64,000 bases of DNA from positions 1 to 64,000 of the forward strand of contig JAMLHJ010000008.1 of NCBI GenBank assembly GCA_023957245.1, written 5' to 3'. Shown here in pieces: positions 51,226 through 62,606 of the stretch. Below the pieces are notes generated by a model, which was not told the origin of the DNA, made no database searches, and saw nothing but the letters and a program-made list of their open reading frames with translations. A program made the translations under genes and the position numbers. This DNA is from Chitinophagales bacterium (GTDB taxonomy: Bacteria > Bacteroidota > Bacteroidia > Chitinophagales > JADIYW01). Position 1 is the first letter of the stretch. Every line of letters begins with the position of its first letter.

Positions 51226-52308
51226 ATGAGTATCAAAAAACATATCATTGACTTTATTCGCCCAGAGCATGTCATAGGAAAGAAACTAGACCTTCTTCTT
51301 ACTATGGGATATTTTAGAACTGGAGGAGGAATGTTTTTAACCCAGATTCAAACTAAAAAAGGAATGCTCGATGATGTTATCAATATAAGGCTAAATCTTG
51401 AGCATCATCAATTTTCAAAGAGTATAAAAAAGATTGCCAGACGTGTTGAAGAAAAATTCACTTATACCATACAGTCTTTCAGCTCAAGCCCAGAAAAAGA
51501 AGCTTTATTCATACATCACAATTTAAAATTCAAAGAAAATATCAATTCAACTTTAAGCACTTTGCTACAAGGGGAATCAATCTATAATAGTCAATTCAAC
51601 ACTTATGAAGTCAATGTCTATGATGGAGATCAATTGATTGCTTTTAGCATTTTTGATATCGGCAAAAATAGTCTAGCAAGTTTATTATGTGCTTACAATC
51701 GTGAATATAATGAATATAGTTTGGGACTATTTACCATGTATGCTGAAATCCAATGGGCAAAAGGAAATCATTACAATTATTACTATCCAGGATATATTTT
51801 AAAAATCAACAAAGGATTTGATTATAAATTAAGATTAGGAGAATATCAGATTTTGGACTGGAAAACATCCAAGTGGGTCAATAAGGAAAACATATCATAC
51901 ACAATTGGGAATGCTCAAAAAATTGAGGAAAGTACAAATTATCTAAGACTTATGCTTGAGAGTGCTAAGATTGAATTTGTGTACAGATATTATATTTGTT
52001 ACACCTATGGCTATTCGTACAAGAACCAAAACTTCTTAAAAAGTCCTGTCCATATCTATTTACCACAGTTTTCCTATGATGAAAAAATATGTATCATCGA
52101 ATACGATGTTGAAGAAGATGTATTTATACTCTCCATTTCTCGTGAAGATATATTTTCCAAACAACAAAGAACATCTGAAGATATTAATAAAGATCCAGAT
52201 GTAGAAGAGCGATTATTAGAATACTTGAGTATTGAAAAATGTGTTGATGCCAAATTATTAGTCTATAAAATCTGGAAAAAAATCAATTCTCCCGAATCTT
52301 CTATTTAG
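51226..52308 (+). CDS. Arginyl-tRNA--protein transferase-like (ATE) protein
   Basis: The protein has 360 residues. Residues about 80-235 look like the C-terminal GNAT-type domain of ATE/Bpt aminoacyl-tRNA-protein transferases: FNTYEVNVYDGDQLIAFSIFDIG, then EYNEYSLGLFTMYAEIQWAKG, then YNYYYPGYILKINKGFDYKLRLGEYQILDW (compare Y.G.Y...C..M.YK). The N-terminal cysteine cluster of eukaryotic ATE1 is missing, and a C-terminal region of about 120 residues has no motif I know. If active, it adds an amino acid from tRNA to protein N-termini. Its stop overlaps the convergent PKS stop by four bases. Confidence 0.65.
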   Translation: MSIKKHIIDFIRPEHVIGKKLDLLLTMGYFRTGGGMFLTQIQTKKGMLDDVINIRLNLEHHQFSKSIKKIARRVEEKFTYTIQSFSSSPEKEALFIHHNLKFKENINSTLSTLLQGESIYNSQFNTYEVNVYDGDQLIAFSIFDIGKNSLASLLCAYNREYNEYSLGLFTMYAEIQWAKGNHYNYYYPGYILKINKGFDYKLRLGEYQILDWKTSKWVNKENISYTIGNAQKIEESTNYLRLMLESAKIEFVYRYYICYTYGYSYKNQNFLKSPVHIYLPQFSYDEKICIIEYDVEEDVFILSISREDIFSKQQRTSEDINKDPDVEERLLEYLSIEKCVDAKLLVYKIWKKINSPESSI

Positions 52309-55300
52309 TCCAATAAACTATTCAATTCATCATCTAACAACTTACTTAAATCATCCAAAGAAAGTTCATCTTCATTAACATCTTTCGTTTCAAGCCTTTT
52401 TTCTTCCAAAATTTCAGGTTGAACCTCTTTCACTTCCTCAACAATCGGTTCTGGCTCTGAAATTATGGATATTTGAGTAGGGACAATTTCTTTCTGTACT
52501 TTTTCAGGTGATTCAATTGCTATATTAAGCTTCAGCTTTTCCAATAAAAATTTGGCATAATCACGAATATTTGAATGAGTCCAAAAAGCAGTCACAGACA
52601 AAGATGTAGCATAAACTTTTTCCAATTGATTCTTCAACTGAATAGACATTAAAGAATCTATCCCCAATGATTTAAAAGTAGTTTTGATATGAATATCATC
52701 AGCTGGCAATTTGACTACATGGCCAACAATTTCCTTCAACTGATTTTCCAAAGTACTTAATCTAATCTCTAAATCATCGATACCCGACAAGATTTCAGTA
52801 AGAGACAATTCTTTAGATACTTCAACATCTTCATCTTTCAACGCATCTTCCTTCCGTAATAAATCATAAAAATGATTTTTAACAGATGAAGGATAAGCTT
52901 GCTGCCATTTAGCTAAATCAAATCTGAATGCACCAACTACTGGGATATCCATTTGAGTGATTACATCAAACCAATCCGTACATTCCTTTGGTGATAATGG
53001 AGCCACACCTTCTTCTTCCAAACGCTCAGAGCGATTATCTGCTGAAGCTGCCAATCCTACATCAGAAACAGTTCCCCATTGAATAGATAAGCCCCCTAAG
53101 CCCAATCGTTCTCTATGTTCCACCAGAGCGTCCATATATTTATTAGCAGCAACATAAGCTGCCTGACCTGGAGAGCCAAATAAAATTGTCGAAGAACTAA
53201 ACAACACAAAATGCTCTAAATCATAAGCTTGTGTCGTAATATGAAGATTGTAAGCACCCAAAACTTTAGGACTTAAGACTCTATAAAATGCATCTTCATC
53301 TAGATTCAAAATTGATGCATCGTCTAATATTCCTGCCAAATGAAATACGCCCTTCAATGGTTGCTCATTGCTATGATGAATAGCTAAAATTCTTTCTATA
53401 TCTTCTCGCTCACTCACATCTGCTTTGTCAATGATAATTTCTGCACCCAATGACCTCAGCTGATGAATGATTTCATTATCTGAATACCCTGTTCTTCCAG
53501 TTAATAACAATCTTCTAGCTCCTTTTGCAACCATATATTGAGCAAATGTCAAACCTAAACCACCATAACCTCCAGTAAGCAAATAAGTAGCATCTTCAGT
53601 AAATCCTTTGCTACCCACAAGCTCCTCTAGAAAGACATTGTCAGAATTGATTTGAATAACAATCTTACCAATATGTTTACCTAAAGACATATACTCAAAT
53701 GCTGATTTCACATCTGTAACATGAAATATCTTACTCTGTATCGGGGTCAATCCACCATCTTCAAAATAAGGTACAAGTTCGCCCAATAAATCTCCAACCA
53801 ATTGAGGCTTCTCAAAGACCATCTTCTCAAAGTCAATCATATAATAGCTAAGGCCTTTACTAAATACTTCTAAGCCTACTTTTGAATTGGCATAAACATC
53901 TTTTTTTCCTATCTCTACAAATCGACCGAAACTTCTTAAAAGATGCATACTTTTCACCATTGCACTACCTGTCAAGGAGTTCAGAACCACATCAATACCT
54001 TCTCCTGATGTATCTTTAAGAATTTGTTCAGCAAAATCTAAATTTCTTGAATCATATACATGATGTACACCCAAAGAATGCAACAACTCTCTTTTCTCTT
54101 CATTTCCAGCTGTTGCAAAAATCTCTGCACCTATCATTTGAGCCACTTGTATAGCAGCCAAACCGACTCCTCCAGTAGCAGAATGTATCAATACTCTCTC
54201 TCCTTTCTGTAATTTAGATTGTATTATCAAGCCATAATATACAGTCAGATAAACAACTGGAATCGTAGCTGCTTCTTCAAAACTTAAATTATCAGGAATA
54301 ATTTGCATCAATGAAGCATCTACATGAATATGAGAAGCCATCGTGTGGTATGCCATACCAAATACCCTATCTCCCACTTTCAAATGTTCCACATCAACAC
54401 CCACTTCATCTACAATCCCTGCACATTCTATTCCTAAGGTGGCAAACCCATTTTCTTTCCCGGGGTAAATACCTAGTGCAGACATCAAATTCATAAAGTT
54501 GATACCTATTGCCTCTACTTTGACTTTAACTTCATGAGCTTTAAGTCGAGGTAATTGCTTCTTCTTAATCTCTATATTGTCCAAAATCCCAGGCTGGCTC
54601 ATTTCCACAGCAAATGATTGATGATTTGCAGGAACTTTCTTAATATCTGTAACTATATTCTCTTGTATATCAATAGGAGATAATCTTTCTACGACCTGAG
54701 TATCAGCAAATATTTTCCAAGTATTCTCCTCAGTAGAACTATTCACTATCTGAGCCACTCTTCCCCAATCGTCTTCAATCATTTCGATAGATGAAGCATT
54801 CAATTCAGGATGTTCGTTTCTCAACACATTCAACATGCCTATCACCGTTGATTGAGCTGGAAATTTTTCTACTGAGTCTGTTAGTACCCATATCTTTGGC
54901 GGAGCATCAGCATACACTACTGCACGAGCAATCCTTACAACAGAAAGAGTAGAATTTTCCTGAGCATCAAGTCCTGCAACAGATTTTTCATCCAAACTCC
55001 ATGTATGAACAACAGTATTTACACTATTGCCAACAATACTAAATAGAGATTGATAATCTTCAAAACTACTTGGGTTGATAATAAATTGATTGCCTTGTTG
55101 ATGAAAAAAATCTCCTTTTCTAACTACCCATTTGGGCTGAAAGGCATCTAACAATTCTTCAGAAATATCATCAGCAACAAAAACAATTATACTTTTTTCC
55201 TCAAAGGAGGGAATATCTTGCTCAATGTTTATCGTATCAAATAAAATTTGCTCCTGAACTTGTTCATTTGAGATAGAATCTTGTTCAAGCCTAGCCAACT

Positions 55301-58300
55301 CAAATCCTTTCAATTCCAATATAATCTGACCTGCATCATTGAGCACAATTGCATCACCTTTGATGGCATTCAAATTATCATCTTGCAATAAAATTTTGAT
55401 TTTACCACCAGAAACATCTTTATCAAAATGATGCAAATAAATTTCTTCAACTTTTATAGGTACAAAGGTAGATGGCTTATCTTTTAAATATTTTGCTGCT
55501 AAAAATGTCTGAATAAATCCATCCAAAATTGCTGGATGAATAAAATATTTAGATATCGAATTTTGTATTAAACTATTCAATTGAATATCTGCAACAATAA
55601 AATTAGTGCCAATATTTAATTGATTAACAGTCTGAAAAGCTTCTCCATAAGGCAATTGAATAGATGAAGTATGCTTGTAATGCTCTTCCTTAGCAACTAC
55701 AACATTACCTTCAGTGTATTCAGAAATATCTTCAAAACTCTCTTTATCTAAGATATTGCTATCAACACTTTGCACAAATACTGATGCTTCTGCATGCTCT
55801 ACCCAGCTGAGTTCATCATCAGTTTCCTGAATGCTATAAATAGAAATCTGATATTGATTTTCAATTTCTTTTGTCAGTACGACTTGTAACACAACATCTT
55901 TATCTTCTTGGATAGGTAAGGCATTTTTTAATGCCACATTTTGAATCAAAAAATGACTGGATTCAAAAGTATTTGCCAATGCAGCCCAAATAATTTCTAT
56001 ATATCCTGCACCAGGAAAAATTACCGTATCTTGAATTTTATGATCTTTCAAGTATGGGTACTCCCTAAGACTAATTTCTGTTTCCCAAACATACATTTCT
56101 ACATCTTTCGGCAATGTGATAGATTGCGATAGAAATGGATGTTCCGAAACATTAACTTGACCTAAAGACGAAACTCTTCGGGTACTAAATGTATTTTCTT
56201 CCACCCAATATCTCACTCTTTGCCATGGATAAACTGGGAGAAGAATTTTTTCAAAATTCAAATCATAAAATTTCTTCCAGCTAATTCTACCACCATTTGC
56301 ATAATAATTTGCAACTTGCTGAATCAGAATCAGTTGATTATCCTTTTCACGTTCAATACTTCCTACTGCTACAATTTCTGACTGTACACTTTCAGCATTT
56401 TCAAGAAGTGCTTGAATCAATGTAGGATGAGGACTGACTTCTACAAAATATCCATATCCTTCTTGAATCATTCTTTGGACAGTCTCAGAAAAGCGAACAG
56501 TCTGACTTAGATTTTTAGTCCAATATTCTGCATCCAACTCTTCGCCATTTACTTCTTTGGCATATACAGTCGAAAATATATCTATAGCTGTTGAGTTGGG
56601 TTGCAAAGCAGTGATTTTCTCTCTCAGTTCATCTACCAAAGGATACATCTGTGGGCTATGAGAAGCTACATCTACTTTCACTTTCCTGACAAAAGCACCA
56701 GTTTGCTCAAAATGATTACAGATTTCATCTACGATATCTATTCTGCCTGAAATCACACATGAAGATGGGCTATTATTAACACCGATACCTATTTCACCTT
56801 CTCTGCCTTTAAATTGTTCAGCAACTTCTGATGGTGGCAAAGCAATATAAGCCATTGCTCCATGACCTGAAGTAGTTTTCATCAACTGACTTCGAGTACA
56901 AATAATTGCTGCAGCCACATCAATGGTAATCGCTCCTGCCAAATAAGCAGCACCAATTTCTCCCATACTGTGACCTATCACTGCCTTATAATCCAAACCT
57001 ATCGACTGCCACCATTTAGCCAATGCAATTTCTACAGCTAATAATGCAGGTTGAATAATATCTATATCTTGCAATCCATTATCATCCAACAGTTCATCCA
57101 ATAAAGACCATGAAACAAAGGCTTGACAAGCAAAAGCAAATTCATCAATAGCATTTTTAAACATAGGCTCAGACTCATACAAATCTCTACCCATTCCTAC
57201 CCATTGAGCTCCTTGACCAGGAAAAACTAAAGCCGTTCTCTTCTTCTCTTCACTATATCCAATTGATACATTTTCAGCATAGTTACCTGAAATTATAGAT
57301 TGAAGAGCAGAAATAATATCGGATTTATCTTTGAAAACAATGGCTGCTCTTTGAGCTAAATCCGCTTTTCTTATTGCAATATTTTTAACCAAATTAAAGA
57401 GTTCATCTTCTGTTTGAACTTTTTCAAATAGTGGTAAATATAATTTGCAATATTCTTGCAATGCCTTTTCATTGGCTGCAGAAACAGGAAGAATATTATA
57501 TTTTCTCCTAAAAGAATTTGAAGACAAATTGACTTTAGGAGCTTCTTGAATAATTACATGAGCATTTGTTCCAGATATTCCAAATGAATTTAAACCTGCC
57601 AGCAATGGTCTTTCAGGATGTGGCCAATCTACAGCCTCAGAAGGAATTTTTAATGACAAATCATTCCAAGGTATATTTGGATTTTTTTCCTCATCGGCAT
57701 ATAGATTACCAGGAATCGTTCTATGTTGAATAGATAATAAAACTTTTATCAGACCAGCAACTCCAGACGCTGCTTCTGTATGACCGAGATTAGTCTTTAT
57801 TGAACCAACATAAAAAACATCATCATGATTTCGACCTTCACTCAAAGCACCAGTAATTGATGCAATCTCTGCTGGGTCACCTGCTTTTGTACCTGTACCA
57901 TGAGCCTCAACATACTGAATCAAATGTGGAGCAATATGAGCACGACTCATAGCATCCTTAATCATAATTTCTTGAGTGATAGCACTCGGAGCCATCATGT
58001 GCTTATGCGATTGACCATCACTATTACAAGCAGAGCCAGGTATTACACCGTATATAAAATCTCCATCTCTTTCAGCATCGCTTAATCTTTTCAATATCAC
58101 AGTAGCTGCACCTTCTGTTCTAACATAACCAGAAGCATCTTTAGCACCGAAACGACATTTCCCATAATCGGAAAGTAATCTCGATCTAGAATATCCTATT
58201 GAAACAAATGAATCTAAAATCAAATTGGCTGCAGAGCAGACTGACATATCGCTTTCACGCAAGTGTAAACTTTGACATGCTAAATGAATAGCTACCAAAG

Positions 58301-58874
58301 AAGTTGAACAAGCTGTATCTAAGGTAAAAGTAGGTCCTTGTAAATTAAAAAAATAAGCTAATCGTCCAGCAGCACCATAACGGCCGCTTCCTGTAGTCGA
58401 ATAAACATCAATATCATCTTTAGAATTGGTCAAGATATGTTCAAAGTCACTTGACCACATACCAGCATACACACCAGTACGTGTTCCCCAGACATCTTCC
58501 AATTTCAAACCAGCATCTTCAAGCGCTTCATAAGTCACCTCCAGCATCAAACGTTGATGTGGATCTACCTTTTCCGCTTCTCTTGGTGAAATCTTAAAAA
58601 ACTTTGCATCAAAATCTTTTAAATTATCCAGCCAACCACCTCGTTTTGATACAATCTTTCGATACCCTCTGTCAGAATCAAAAAGATGATCAGACTGAGT
58701 AAATCTATCTATTGGAACATCATGAAGAGTGCTTTTCTTTTCAATTAAGACCTTCCAAAAATCTTCTAGATTATTAATTCCTCCTGAATACCTACACCCA
58801 ACACCTATAATTGCTATAGGTTCTTGTAAAGGGAAAGTCCTTTTAGAAGTATCTGCAAGGTCTGAAATTTTCAT
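52305..58874 (-). CDS. Single-module fully reducing type I polyketide synthase
   Basis: The protein has 2189 residues: KS (about 13-435; Cys189, His325, His365), AT (about 550-855; GHSMGE with Ser636, specificity motif V736-A-S-H739), DH (about 915-1200; His945 in DHKIQDTVIFP, Asp1118 in LDGFIQ), a structural KR part (about 1240-1440), ER (about 1465-1755; HSATGGVGLA), KR (about 1765-1945; GGYGGLGL, Tyr1907), ACP (about 2040-2105; Ser2074 in GIDSLM), and an acidic tail ending LDDELNSLLD. The order matches mycocerosic-acid-synthase-like and HglE-like enzymes, so an iterative role in making a saturated, perhaps methyl-branched, chain is plausible. No thioesterase or loading domain. Third gene of the exporter operon. 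Confidence 0.93.
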   Translation of the reverse strand: MKISDLADTSKRTFPLQEPIAIIGVGCRYSGGINNLEDFWKVLIEKKSTLHDVPIDRFTQSDHLFDSDRGYRKIVSKRGGWLDNLKDFDAKFFKISPREAEKVDPHQRLMLEVTYEALEDAGLKLEDVWGTRTGVYAGMWSSDFEHILTNSKDDIDVYSTTGSGRYGAAGRLAYFFNLQGPTFTLDTACSTSLVAIHLACQSLHLRESDMSVCSAANLILDSFVSIGYSRSRLLSDYGKCRFGAKDASGYVRTEGAATVILKRLSDAERDGDFIYGVIPGSACNSDGQSHKHMMAPSAITQEIMIKDAMSRAHIAPHLIQYVEAHGTGTKAGDPAEIASITGALSEGRNHDDVFYVGSIKTNLGHTEAASGVAGLIKVLLSIQHRTIPGNLYADEEKNPNIPWNDLSLKIPSEAVDWPHPERPLLAGLNSFGISGTNAHVIIQEAPKVNLSSNSFRRKYNILPVSAANEKALQEYCKLYLPLFEKVQTEDELFNLVKNIAIRKADLAQRAAIVFKDKSDIISALQSIISGNYAENVSIGYSEEKKRTALVFPGQGAQWVGMGRDLYESEPMFKNAIDEFAFACQAFVSWSLLDELLDDNGLQDIDIIQPALLAVEIALAKWWQSIGLDYKAVIGHSMGEIGAAYLAGAITIDVAAAIICTRSQLMKTTSGHGAMAYIALPPSEVAEQFKGREGEIGIGVNNSPSSCVISGRIDIVDEICNHFEQTGAFVRKVKVDVASHSPQMYPLVDELREKITALQPNSTAIDIFSTVYAKEVNGEELDAEYWTKNLSQTVRFSETVQRMIQEGYGYFVEVSPHPTLIQALLENAESVQSEIVAVGSIEREKDNQLILIQQVANYYANGGRISWKKFYDLNFEKILLPVYPWQRVRYWVEENTFSTRRVSSLGQVNVSEHPFLSQSITLPKDVEMYVWETEISLREYPYLKDHKIQDTVIFPGAGYIEIIWAALANTFESSHFLIQNVALKNALPIQEDKDVVLQVVLTKEIENQYQISIYSIQETDDELSWVEHAEASVFVQSVDSNILDKESFEDISEYTEGNVVVAKEEHYKHTSSIQLPYGEAFQTVNQLNIGTNFIVADIQLNSLIQNSISKYFIHPAILDGFIQTFLAAKYLKDKPSTFVPIKVEEIYLHHFDKDVSGGKIKILLQDDNLNAIKGDAIVLNDAGQIILELKGFELARLEQDSISNEQVQEQILFDTINIEQDIPSFEEKSIIVFVADDISEELLDAFQPKWVVRKGDFFHQQGNQFIINPSSFEDYQSLFSIVGNSVNTVVHTWSLDEKSVAGLDAQENSTLSVVRIARAVVYADAPPKIWVLTDSVEKFPAQSTVIGMLNVLRNEHPELNASSIEMIEDDWGRVAQIVNSSTEENTWKIFADTQVVERLSPIDIQENIVTDIKKVPANHQSFAVEMSQPGILDNIEIKKKQLPRLKAHEVKVKVEAIGINFMNLMSALGIYPGKENGFATLGIECAGIVDEVGVDVEHLKVGDRVFGMAYHTMASHIHVDASLMQIIPDNLSFEEAATIPVVYLTVYYGLIIQSKLQKGERVLIHSATGGVGLAAIQVAQMIGAEIFATAGNEEKRELLHSLGVHHVYDSRNLDFAEQILKDTSGEGIDVVLNSLTGSAMVKSMHLLRSFGRFVEIGKKDVYANSKVGLEVFSKGLSYYMIDFEKMVFEKPQLVGDLLGELVPYFEDGGLTPIQSKIFHVTDVKSAFEYMSLGKHIGKIVIQINSDNVFLEELVGSKGFTEDATYLLTGGYGGLGLTFAQYMVAKGARRLLLTGRTGYSDNEIIHQLRSLGAEIIIDKADVSEREDIERILAIHHSNEQPLKGVFHLAGILDDASILNLDEDAFYRVLSPKVLGAYNLHITTQAYDLEHFVLFSSSTILFGSPGQAAYVAANKYMDALVEHRERLGLGGLSIQWGTVSDVGLAASADNRSERLEEEGVAPLSPKECTDWFDVITQMDIPVVGAFRFDLAKWQQAYPSSVKNHFYDLLRKEDALKDEDVEVSKELSLTEILSGIDDLEIRLSTLENQLKEIVGHVVKLPADDIHIKTTFKSLGIDSLMSIQLKNQLEKVYATSLSVTAFWTHSNIRDYAKFLLEKLKLNIAIESPEKVQKEIVPTQISIISEPEPIVEEVKEVQPEILEEKRLETKDVNEDELSLDDLSKLLDDELNSLLD

Positions 58875-58927
58875 AGATAGATAGTTTTCCTATAAAGATA
58901 ACATCTATATACGATTTAAGTATAAAC

Positions 58928-60010
58928 CTAGGAAATTGTTGTCGTCAATTTTTCTTTTTCTAGCTTTTCTTCAGCAAAAGAATCTTGAGAAGCCTTCACA
59001 AAACAAAGGATGATAATACTTAATGCAGCACCGACCCCCAAACCTATCAAGCCCCAGAAATCTGGATCTCTTTCGTCAATTTCCGTAGAAAATGCAGGTT
59101 GGTCCACTATTCTCATCACATCACTTTCTGTTCCTAAAGCACTTTTTGCAGCCTCCAATGAAGATAATGCATCGTTATACTGAATATTCAAAAATGCAAT
59201 TTCTCTATTATATTCTGTCAGAGATAATACACCTTCATCTTTCTTATTGAAAATATTCTGGTCTTTGGTTGTAGCAACTAAACCATTATAATAGGTCAAA
59301 GCACCATCAATAGAATCTACTCTACTTTTCAATTTATTATATCCATCTAAAGCTTTACGATTGGCACTCAAAGCATAATATTGTTGAGTATTTCTAAGCA
59401 TAGACTCACAAAGCTTTTGGGCAACTTCCTTAGTAGGTGTATAAACACCAGCACGAATCAAACCAGCCAAAGGGTCAAACTCTACTTCTATATAATCTTC
59501 AACTAGAGAATTATAAACTTCAGAAATAACACTGTCCTCTGTTGGAGAAAGTTTATAAATATCTACAGCAGTAAATTTAAAATTTTCTAATCCTGGAGTA
59601 GCTTTATAGACATCCATATACCCCAATGACTCTAAATAGAAGTTGATAATTTTATCTTTTTTACCATGAATTTCTACTTCATCCAACAATGATGTTTTCA
59701 CAACATTACGAGATGAAAAAATACCTGATAAAATATCATTAGATGTTCCTCCACCAATCCCCACAAAAGAAGAAGCTAAAGACATTAATCCACCAAAACC
59801 ACCACTACTACGAGAATCTATTGCATTAAAAGAAGCATTAGCTACCCATTGTTTCTCAGAAATATCTGCAAACCAACGTCCACCATAATACAACAAAACA
59901 GTTGCGGCAATAACAATATAAATACGCTTAAGTACATATATTGAGTAATTCTTTATGCCTCTGAGTAAATCAGTCAGCTTAATATCGTCACTTTGAAAAT
60001 ACGGATCCAT
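58928..60010 (-). CDS. Wzz-type polysaccharide chain-length protein
   Basis: The protein has 360 residues. It has two membrane helices, near residues 31-46 (IYIVIAATVLLYYGG) and 320-340 (FWGLIGLGVGAALSIIILCF), with a periplasmic domain and coiled-coil stretch between them (about 210-295). Wzz/GumC-family members control the length of exported polysaccharide. It has no tyrosine-kinase domain. It begins 16 bases after the Wza-like gene and ends 53 bases before the PKS, so all three belong to one operon. Confidence 0.88.
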   Translation of the reverse strand: MDPYFQSDDIKLTDLLRGIKNYSIYVLKRIYIVIAATVLLYYGGRWFADISEKQWVANASFNAIDSRSSGGFGGLMSLASSFVGIGGGTSNDILSGIFSSRNVVKTSLLDEVEIHGKKDKIINFYLESLGYMDVYKATPGLENFKFTAVDIYKLSPTEDSVISEVYNSLVEDYIEVEFDPLAGLIRAGVYTPTKEVAQKLCESMLRNTQQYYALSANRKALDGYNKLKSRVDSIDGALTYYNGLVATTKDQNIFNKKDEGVLSLTEYNREIAFLNIQYNDALSSLEAAKSALGTESDVMRIVDQPAFSTEIDERDPDFWGLIGLGVGAALSIIILCFVKASQDSFAEEKLEKEKLTTTIS

Positions 60011-60026
60011 ATTGATAGCTGATTAT

Positions 60027-62504
60027 TTATTTTTTCAACAAGAATATAATAGCAATCGTAGAGGCCGCACTACTCAAACTCACAATGATACTAGGCAACA
60101 CCAAGTTCCAGTTCAATGGTTGTTTAGGAACAGGGATATCTTCTGGTTTAGGAGGTTTAGCATAAGTCAATACTTGAGAACCTTCTCTTACCTTAGCATA
60201 TTTCTTAATACCCAAGAAGCTTTTCGTTCTGCCGATATCGCCATTAGGATGCATGACCACAGTCAATTTTCTATTGGCCCTTGGAGCATAACCTCCACCA
60301 TAATTTTTGATATAATATTTAGCAGATTTTCCAGGTATATATCTAGCAGATACAAAACGATTGGAATCTGTAGGATATTTGATAGCACCTTTTACAGATA
60401 CCATTGGATTCATTGTAGGAATCTCAATAATATCACCATTCATCAAAGCATAATTTGCATAAGAGTTTGAATCGCTATAAGCCACTTTTAAGTCTAAAAT
60501 TTCAATTGCATTAACACTATCCTTTCTAAACAAACGTGCAGAATTGATATGAGCAAATGGAGTCAATCCTCCAGCTCTTTCAATCAATTGAATAATTGTT
60601 TCATTTTTAGCCAAAATAGGATACGTTCCAGGATATAATACTTCTCCAGTAACAGCTACTGTCATTTGTTCATTGAAATCAACGCTTTTTCTTACAAAGA
60701 CTTGATCCATAGGTGCCAACTCATAATTTTTAGAAAAGTCATCAAGTTCAAGATTAGGTCCTATCTGTAGTGTCTGAACAACAACTCTTTGTGCTTCAAA
60801 AGTTTTATCTGTATCATCTTTCACATTAATAACTCTAGAAATTTCGATTTTATTATTAGCTGCTTCTTTCTTTAATCCACCTGCATAAAAAATCAAATCA
60901 TTTAAAGTCAAACCTTCAGAGTAATCAATCTTTACTGGTTTGCGTACAGAACCTGTAATAGACACACTGAATTTCTCAATAAAGCTTTGTTTTGAGAATA
61001 ATTCTAATTTATCTAATTTCTTCAAAAGAACATTATCTGTTGCATTCTCATCTAAGAAGATATCTTTCAAGCTAATTTTCATCAACACAGATGAACCATC
61101 ATCCATCTTTCTTGTCAAATAAGCTCTATCCATATAAGTCTCAGGCAACATACCACCAGCAATTTTAATCAAATCACTCACTCTATAGCCTTCCTTAAAT
61201 TGGTAAATACCAGGAATCAAAACAGTTCCAGAAATCTCAACTGCATCTTCCCCTCTAATATTAGCTTGTGGAATGTAAATTTTATCACCATCTTGAAGAA
61301 CAAAATCTCCACCACCATTCAAAATAGAAGATAAGTTGATATTCAGAACTTCTTGTTTTTGATTGATATATCTTTCTACTTTAATTAAATCTGTATAAGC
61401 ATTAGCTTGAAGACCACCAGCAAATTCTAATAATTTTTTGATACCTTCTCCAGATTTCATTTCATATTTATTCTCTTTCCTTACTGCTCCAGATATTTCA
61501 ACTACTTTACCAATAATTGGAACATATATCACATCATTTTCTTGTAGATAGAAATTTTGTTTTGCATCACTATTCAATAAGAACTCATAAACGTCAAAAG
61601 ATTTCACTAATTTACCATCTCTACGAACATCTATATTCCTCAAACTACCATTAGTTGTAGGTCCATTAGCGGCATTCAAAGCATTAAATACTGAATTGAT
61701 AGCAGGAATTTGGAATGTACCTGGCTGGATAACTTCGCCTAAAATATTGATACTAATATTTCTAGCATAGTTTAAAGTAATTTCATACTGTGTATTCTTA
61801 GGATTAATAAAAGAAGCTAATCTTTTAGCAATCAATTGTTTAACTGCGCCAAATGTCAATCCTTTTACATATACTCTACCAAATTCTGGAATCTGAATAT
61901 ATCCATCTTTATTCACTTTGAAAGTACCATTATAATCAGCAAATCCCCAAACTGCTAAAGTAATTTCATCATCAATACTCACGATATAAGAATCACTTAC
62001 TTTTGCATCTACTGATTTTACATAAGTCTGTAATAAATCATTATGAAACAATTCATGCCCCCAAACATATAAGACTTTTGTTTTCTCTAGGCTTGCATCA
62101 TCCATTTTTTTCTGCATGAGTCCGATAGAATCTTGCAGCACTCTCATTCTTGCAGTCTGAGAATACAACATATCAAATAAGCCTTCAGAGCTACTCAAAT
62201 CAAATCCTGCTGTAGGATTCACATCACCTGCTGTAGGAGCTGCAATAGCTGCTGGAGCTTTTGTTGAAGATGGAGGAGTTGGTTTGCCTTTTTCATCCAA
62301 ATTTTCTTGACTACCCATCAACAATTTCAATGTATTTTGATCAAGTCCCATCATAGAAGATTGATTTACATTGGGTAGCTGTCCCATCATTTTGGACGGG
62401 CTGAGCATGTTGGTAATTTGATTGAGATTAATTCCGCTTACTTGAGCTTGTGCTGTAAATAGTAAGGATGTAATAAAAATTGCTGATGCAATTAGTTTTT
62501 TCAT
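60027..62504 (-). CDS. Outer-membrane polysaccharide export protein with six SLBB units
   Basis: The protein has 825 residues. A signal peptide ends near LFTAQA (residue 20). A polysaccharide-export domain (about 165-245; SYIVSIDDEITLAVWGFADYNGTFKVNKDGYIQIPEFGRVYVKGLT) precedes six SLBB units, each opening like VEISGTVLIPGIY or VAVTGEVLYPGTY. A membrane helix lies at the C-terminus (LVLPSIIVSLSSAASTIAIIFLL). It should form the outer-membrane channel for an exopolysaccharide. The six SLBB units make it longer than E. coli Wza (about 380 residues), as in other Bacteroidota. First gene of the operon. Confidence 0.92.
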   Translation of the reverse strand: MKKLIASAIFITSLLFTAQAQVSGINLNQITNMLSPSKMMGQLPNVNQSSMMGLDQNTLKLLMGSQENLDEKGKPTPPSSTKAPAAIAAPTAGDVNPTAGFDLSSSEGLFDMLYSQTARMRVLQDSIGLMQKKMDDASLEKTKVLYVWGHELFHNDLLQTYVKSVDAKVSDSYIVSIDDEITLAVWGFADYNGTFKVNKDGYIQIPEFGRVYVKGLTFGAVKQLIAKRLASFINPKNTQYEITLNYARNISINILGEVIQPGTFQIPAINSVFNALNAANGPTTNGSLRNIDVRRDGKLVKSFDVYEFLLNSDAKQNFYLQENDVIYVPIIGKVVEISGAVRKENKYEMKSGEGIKKLLEFAGGLQANAYTDLIKVERYINQKQEVLNINLSSILNGGGDFVLQDGDKIYIPQANIRGEDAVEISGTVLIPGIYQFKEGYRVSDLIKIAGGMLPETYMDRAYLTRKMDDGSSVLMKISLKDIFLDENATDNVLLKKLDKLELFSKQSFIEKFSVSITGSVRKPVKIDYSEGLTLNDLIFYAGGLKKEAANNKIEISRVINVKDDTDKTFEAQRVVVQTLQIGPNLELDDFSKNYELAPMDQVFVRKSVDFNEQMTVAVTGEVLYPGTYPILAKNETIIQLIERAGGLTPFAHINSARLFRKDSVNAIEILDLKVAYSDSNSYANYALMNGDIIEIPTMNPMVSVKGAIKYPTDSNRFVSARYIPGKSAKYYIKNYGGGYAPRANRKLTVVMHPNGDIGRTKSFLGIKKYAKVREGSQVLTYAKPPKPEDIPVPKQPLNWNLVLPSIIVSLSSAASTIAIIFLLKK

Positions 62505-62522: not shown

Positions 62523-62530
62523 CAAAGGTA
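62523..62530 (-). promoter_or_regulatory. -7 box of the exporter-PKS operon
   Basis: On the minus strand TACCTTTG matches TAnnTTTG and lies 18 bases before the ATG. No TTTG lies at -33, which may mean an activator is needed. Confidence 0.5.
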
Positions 62531-62574
62531 ATAAAATACTTTTCCTATTTAGATAATATCCCTTAAAGATAAAA

Positions 62575-62606
62575 AAAATGGGCTGCACGTTGCAACCCAT
62601 TTCTAT
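62575..62606 (-). terminator. Terminator of the OmpA-family gene
   Basis: AATGGG-TGCA pairs with TGCA-CCCATT (one internal mismatch). An A-rich run lies on the plus strand before it, so the minus-strand transcript ends in T. It lies 17 bases past the OmpA stop. Confidence 0.8.

Follow-up and report, generated by a model that had tools for sequence, protein, structure and literature searches.

The analysed stretch of DNA (hereafter the window; 64,000 nucleotides) corresponds to C22:1-64000 of a 3.09 Mb genome whose T9SS sorting domains and TonB receptors point to Bacteroidota. Its minus strand carries three consecutive genes, for an outer-membrane polysaccharide exporter (OPX), a polysaccharide co-polymerase (PCP) and a reducing type I polyketide synthase (PKS-A) (Table 1). 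The intergenic distances are 16 and 53 bases according to the ORF coordinates, which reproduces the gene order and gaps of the initial annotation. Its wording that the PKS is "fused" into the export operon does not hold, however, since OPX, PCP and PKS-A are three separate ORFs. The ompA-like gene upstream of OPX is found at the same place in the relatives G001, G002 and G005. At the other end of the set, the stop codon of PKS-A shares four bases with a convergent gene (51226-52308), which resembles the C-terminal part of arginyl-tRNA-protein transferase / GNAT with scores under the equivalog cut-offs. Between the window genome (G000) and G001, the identity is 92% for OPX and 98% for PCP; it is lower for PKS-A (80%), as for most neighbouring genes. 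A second, distant pair of OPX (1016 aa) and PCP (373 aa) is encoded with nucleotide-sugar genes on C4 (L079:10384-14561), and the window genome carries two predicted export systems.

Table 1 Features of the OPX-PCP-PKS-A locus, with positions in the window.
Feature	Position	Strand	Evidence and remarks
OmpA-like beta-barrel + OmpA domain protein, full length 513 aa	62623..64000	-	Pfam
Terminator-like hairpin, ompA-like gene / OPX interval	62574..62604	-	sequence
Motif TTATCTAAATAGGAAAA, copy 1, 5' of OPX	62540..62556	-	motif search
Bacteroidetes-type -7 box TACCTTTG (TAccTTTG), 5' of OPX	62523..62530	-	sequence motif
OPX outer-membrane polysaccharide exporter, 825 aa	60027..62504	-	Poly_export domain, SLBB units (about six); hydrophobic helix at the C-terminus
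PCP, Wzz/KpsE/Wzc-periplasmic fold, 360 aa	58928..60010	-	a TM helix at either end; kinase domain absent
Motif TTATCTTTATAGGAAAA, copy 2, 5' of PKS-A	58885..58901	-	genome-wide motif search
PKS-A, reducing type I polyketide synthase, 2189 aa	52305..58874	-	Pfam domains + motifs
KS domain, PKS-A	57702..58823	-	DTACSTS, HGTGT, KTNLGHTE intact; no preceding N-terminal docking helix
AT domain, PKS-A	56331..57227	-	GHSMG; VDVASHSPQ = methylmalonyl-type motif, same in MAS
DH domain, PKS-A	55278..56141	-	catalytic His (HKIQDTVIFPG) and Asp (HPAILDGFIQ) kept; usual HxxxG Gly replaced
ER domain, PKS-A	53655..54539	-	TGGVGLAAIQ intact
KR domain, PKS-A	53064..53591	-	TGGYGGLG; S-Y-N catalytic residues; LDD motif
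ACP domain, PKS-A	52545..52742	-	LGIDSL
Acidic conserved C-terminal tail DELSLDDLSKLLDDELNSLLD, PKS-A	52308..52394	-	sequence conservation; putative docking segment

The OPX protein has the Poly_export domain and SLBB repeats expected of such exporters. Five SLBB stretches were detected by Pfam, and visual inspection gives six SLBB-like repeats, in agreement with the earlier description of a Wza-like exporter with six SLBB units. The PCP showed no family match in Pfam or NCBIfam, and a PDB sequence search with its profile, like one with the profile of the SGNH protein described below, gave no reliable match. Fold searches, in contrast, did give matches. The AlphaFold model of the PCP (pLDDT 77) has an alpha/beta base with a long helical hairpin, flanked by two TM helices, as expected of a co-polymerase, and Foldseek matched it to Wzc, WzzE and KpsE with E-values down to 3e-9, which bears out the label "Wzz-like".

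PKS-A has the domain order KS-AT-DH-ER-KR-ACP and the catalytic residues of a reducing cis-AT type I PKS, with a DH that lacks the usual Gly of HxxxG. Its dN/dS ratio between G000 and G001 is about 0.08 (0.133/1.66, with dS near saturation), suggesting purifying selection. The closest solved chain was MAS (E ~1e-296), which has the same domain order and an identical VDVASHSPQ motif in its AT domain; the comparison with MAS made in the initial annotation is therefore apt at the sequence level. PKS-A nevertheless lies outside the MAS/Pks2 equivalog of NCBIfam (1199 bits against a cut-off of 2400). A search of genome contigs with the PKS gave a sole, partial match (25%).

The three genes had been assumed to share one promoter. 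Consistent with this, a -7 box precedes OPX, a TAnnTTTG box is also found 5' of OPX in G001, G002, G004 and G005, and no terminator-like sites were found on the minus strand between OPX, PCP and PKS-A. However, a 17-base motif (TTATCTNNATAGGAAAA) has exactly two copies in the 3.09 Mb genome, one 5' of OPX and the other 5' of the PKS. Because this motif precedes the PKS as well as OPX, a single promoter is unproven; the motif could serve both genes as a control site, or could mark a second start. The PKS-side copy is identical in G001 and near-identical in G002. Counts of sigma-70 promoters were at chance level (63 vs 62) and were given no weight.

The initial annotation had proposed a search for the three-gene order in related genomes. 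Of the 13 genomes in our sample of the family, 11 have an orthologue of the PCP (35-98% identity); the remaining two are incomplete assemblies (G003, 72% complete, and G011, 85%). In 11/11 genomes with the orthologue, OPX lies in front of the PCP and a type I PKS directly behind it, all on the same strand. In other families, 0/20 loci with OPX-PCP or PCP had such a same-strand PKS behind the PCP; several of these loci lie on contigs that end shortly after the PCP. The linkage differs significantly between the family and other families (Fisher's exact test: p ~1e-8, with kin genomes that are not independent samples) and is far beyond chance. The PKS directly behind the co-polymerase is found in three genera, with three different PKS arrangements. 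Among the PKS loci examined elsewhere in the order and phylum, outside the family, none had an OPX or PCP nearby. Predicted enzymes for a branched fatty-type chain are co-inherited with surface-glycan export machinery in one Bacteroidota family. Among the open-access papers searched, no report of a PKS tied to Wza or MBOAT in Bacteroidota was found.

A PKS also lies beside OPX-PCP in two genomes of family f15 (G026 and G085). This pair was rejected as the same arrangement, as the PKS is convergent to OPX-PCP and of another lineage (28-30% identity for G026). The f15 PKS genes (L162:2-7651 and L046:13502-18265; 2549 aa in G085, cut by the contig start or the locus edge) possibly represent an independent association.

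The window genome encodes two more type I PKSs, PKS-B on C12 and PKS-C on C1. PKS-B is of the KS-AT-KR-ACP type (KS-AT-KR-ACP-ACP in the window genome, 1638 aa), and PKS-C has the order KS-AT-ACP (1087 aa in the window genome). In a KS-AT tree, A, B and C formed separate clades that largely track genera, and A (with a hybrid from G008) was sister to B (100/99). The gene order is OPX-PCP-A-B in G005, with PKS-C, a thioesterase (TE) and a PPTase elsewhere in that genome, and a fragment of G003 shows the end of PKS-A followed by PKS-B. In the sister genus g3, the order is OPX-PCP-B-C-TE-PPTase where the assembly shows the locus whole, with no TE in G008. In the window genus, by contrast, the linked set is OPX-PCP-PKS-A only, while PKS-B, PKS-C and the partner genes are scattered. 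Unlinked presence of the PKS in relatives had been named beforehand as evidence against the proposal; it applies to PKS-B and PKS-C in the window genus, but PKS-A follows OPX-PCP in 4/4 genomes that allow its placement.

Conserved helices stand at the N-termini of PKS-B and PKS-C. PKS-A has no docking helix at its N-terminus, and it ends in a conserved acidic tail. The helix of PKS-B matched that of CurL weakly (E 0.09), and no match for the PKS-A tail was found in the PDB. With the conserved tails and helices and the A-B tandem of G005, the putative order is A-B-C with possible docking between the proteins, the tail DELSLDDLSKLLDDELNSLLD being a candidate docking segment for PKS-B. PKS-A is probably the first of three PKS proteins rather than a stand-alone enzyme. 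The earlier term "single-module PKS" fits the 2189-aa protein itself, but probably not the system to which it belongs. Unlike MAS/Pks2, PKS-A has the conserved acidic C-terminal tail and the partner PKS-B, suggesting that it hands over its product rather than acting purely iteratively. In PKS-C (L034:7559-10822) and its orthologues, DAACASS and HGIGN replace the usual KS motifs, and the C-terminal tail is conserved (WHEIK..D..W...FKK.DK). The hybrid PKS of G008 (L041:11485-15945) has a KS-AT that groups with A (47% identity), a KR-ACP that resembles B and no N-terminal helix; it reads as a natural module fusion.

In the sister genus, the PKS block, TE and PPTase are followed by genes for GtrA, a 360-aa SGNH protein, an MBOAT, a Wzx/MatE flippase and a GT4 glycosyltransferase. 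The window genome has orthologues of PKS-B, PKS-C, TE, PPTase, MBOAT-SGNH and Wzx away from the window locus, with the PPTase on C10, the TE on C17, and Wzx and a GT about 15 kb away from PKS-B on C12. Its sole MBOAT is encoded on C19 and adjoins the 360-aa SGNH partner. The MBOAT matched DltB (E 5e-20), keeps the catalytic His in HGANW and ends with FVYFQF, in line with FxYxxF, the acyl-shuttle motif of DltX and PatA (PMC12148441). The g3 MBOAT ends with FVYFQY, the last residue departing from FxYxxF. The SGNH partner has GGS and HHLN-KG motifs and, by fold search, a DltD fold. The pair thus has the catalytic His, the C-terminal shuttle motif and the DltD-fold partner of polymer acyltransferases such as DltB-DltX-DltD, PatA-PatB and AlgI-AlgJ. 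Several OPX-PCP loci of families f15 and f3 carry MBOAT and Wzx, some with a recognisable SGNH partner, and none carries a PKS. Therefore, the PKS block was apparently inserted into a glycan O-acylation locus.

The AT motifs are GHSMG and VASH in PKS-A and PKS-B, and GHSIG and HAFH in PKS-C. HAFH has been linked to malonyl-CoA and YASH/VASH to methylmalonyl-CoA, although this motif is not sufficient to assign specificity (PMC8058987). Together with the reductive domains, the plain reading is that a beta-hydroxy unit and then a beta-oxo unit follow a reduced branched unit; the three PKSs could also act iteratively. The acyl unit built by PKS-A would be fully reduced and probably methyl-branched, and would pass to PKS-B, which would add a beta-hydroxyl unit through its methylmalonyl-type AT. 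PKS-C would then add an unreduced unit through its malonyl-type AT, leaving a branched beta-oxo/beta-hydroxy acyl chain on its ACP. As in DltB/DltX/DltD, the acyl group may move from the ACP to the shuttle Tyr of the MBOAT and the Ser of the SGNH protein, and end as an ester on a Wzx-dependent glycan. The acylated polymer would be handled by the PCP and exported through OPX. The order A-B-C, the substrates, the transfer step and the glycan linkage are inferred. We favour the route from ACP through MBOAT and SGNH; DltB provides a precedent for taking an acyl group from a carrier protein. The OPX-PCP-PKS-A set of the window would then be the remaining core of a glycan-plus-polyketide system that was passed down in the family.

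The initial annotation had suggested that a polyketide or branched fatty chain is attached to, or anchors, an exported glycan. The family-wide linkage and the sister-genus locus with Wzx, GT4, GtrA and MBOAT-SGNH lend contextual support to such a tie, but the attachment itself is a proposal. Since the PKS, flippase, GT, acyltransferases and exporter form a linked set, the polyketide is presumably made for the exported glycan. We give nearly an even chance to the reading that a branched polyketide acyl chain is esterified to a Wzx-dependent glycan, probably by the MBOAT-SGNH pair, and exported via PCP-OPX. Several points count against it: other genes of the system are scattered in the window genus, MBOAT-SGNH pairs occur in relatives without a PKS at the locus, so that the pair may simply acetylate, and docking is predicted from sequence, with the weak CurL match and the lack of a PDB match for the tail. 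More tentative is the fuller proposal that a three-protein modular PKS passes its carrier-bound branched acyl group directly to MBOAT-SGNH for esterification of the glycan, as a family-wide envelope trait in Bacteroidota. The same scattering would suit a scenario in which the three PKSs produce a separate envelope lipid or small metabolite; co-regulation or history would then explain the shared operon, and the exported glycan would be unmodified. In the window genus neither PKS-B nor PKS-C is linked to the exporter, no exporter lies near the PKS loci examined in the rest of the order and phylum, and other families run the same exporter without a PKS. We nevertheless consider an independent lipid, the main alternative to a glycan-linked polyketide, rather unlikely, as a PKS is kept directly behind the co-polymerase despite the three arrangements, and a single locus of the sister genus holds the PKSs together with flippase, GT and acyltransferases.

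The main alternative that still ties the polyketide to the glycan is a lipid anchor for building the glycan or holding it in the outer membrane, instead of a side-chain ester. A lipid-anchor role has been suggested for the PKSs RkpA (Sinorhizobium K antigen) and WcbR (Burkholderia capsule), and type I PKS genes are known from clusters for the synthesis and export of capsules. The presence of a thioesterase and a PPTase, and the match of the PCP fold to KpsE of a lipid-anchored capsule exporter, are also consistent with an anchor. RkpG is an oxoamine synthase-type partner in the RkpA capsule system; no such partner was recognised in the annotation of the linked loci (in the subset of neighbours scanned), and the sister-genus locus has a Wzx-type flippase, not a KpsMT ABC exporter. 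An anchor is therefore unlikely in our view. The direct adjacency of OPX-PCP and PKS-A could further mean that the exporter carries the polyketide or a short glyco-polyketide itself. This is very improbable, because polymer export is the known role of the OPX and PCP families, and loci that lack a PKS also hold related OPX-PCP pairs.

If esterification of the glycan by MBOAT-SGNH is correct, MBOAT-SGNH chemistry would extend from acetyl and D-alanyl groups to polyketides, with a PKS carrier protein as the donor in place of the D-Ala-DltC or acetyl-CoA of known systems, and the product would be a new kind of surface lipoglycan. Bacteria of this family may tailor a lipid of their own to decorate or anchor a surface sugar polymer. 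A PKS, carrier-protein activation, a shuttle-motif acyltransferase, a flippase and an exporter are inherited in the family as a compact set, each separately removable. To our knowledge, the route by which the products of capsule-locus PKSs reach the glycan is poorly understood. HglE, the PKS of heterocyst glycolipids, is a reducing type I PKS that makes an envelope lipid, and PKS-A may resemble it in this general respect. MAS is the nearest solved sequence to PKS-A. The nearest functional precedent, better than these earlier comparisons, appears to be RkpA/WcbR, the likeness being one of gene arrangement. In Sinorhizobium rkp-1 and Burkholderia wcb, a type I PKS is encoded with capsular polysaccharide biosynthesis and export genes (PMC3908369, PMC7902896). 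The sister-genus locus likewise holds type I PKSs together with Wzx, GT4, OPX and PCP. Unlike the RkpA/WcbR systems, the family has three PKS proteins, a Wzx-type flippase and MBOAT-SGNH in the sister locus, and OPX-PCP directly in front of the PKS. PKSs in capsule loci are thus already known.
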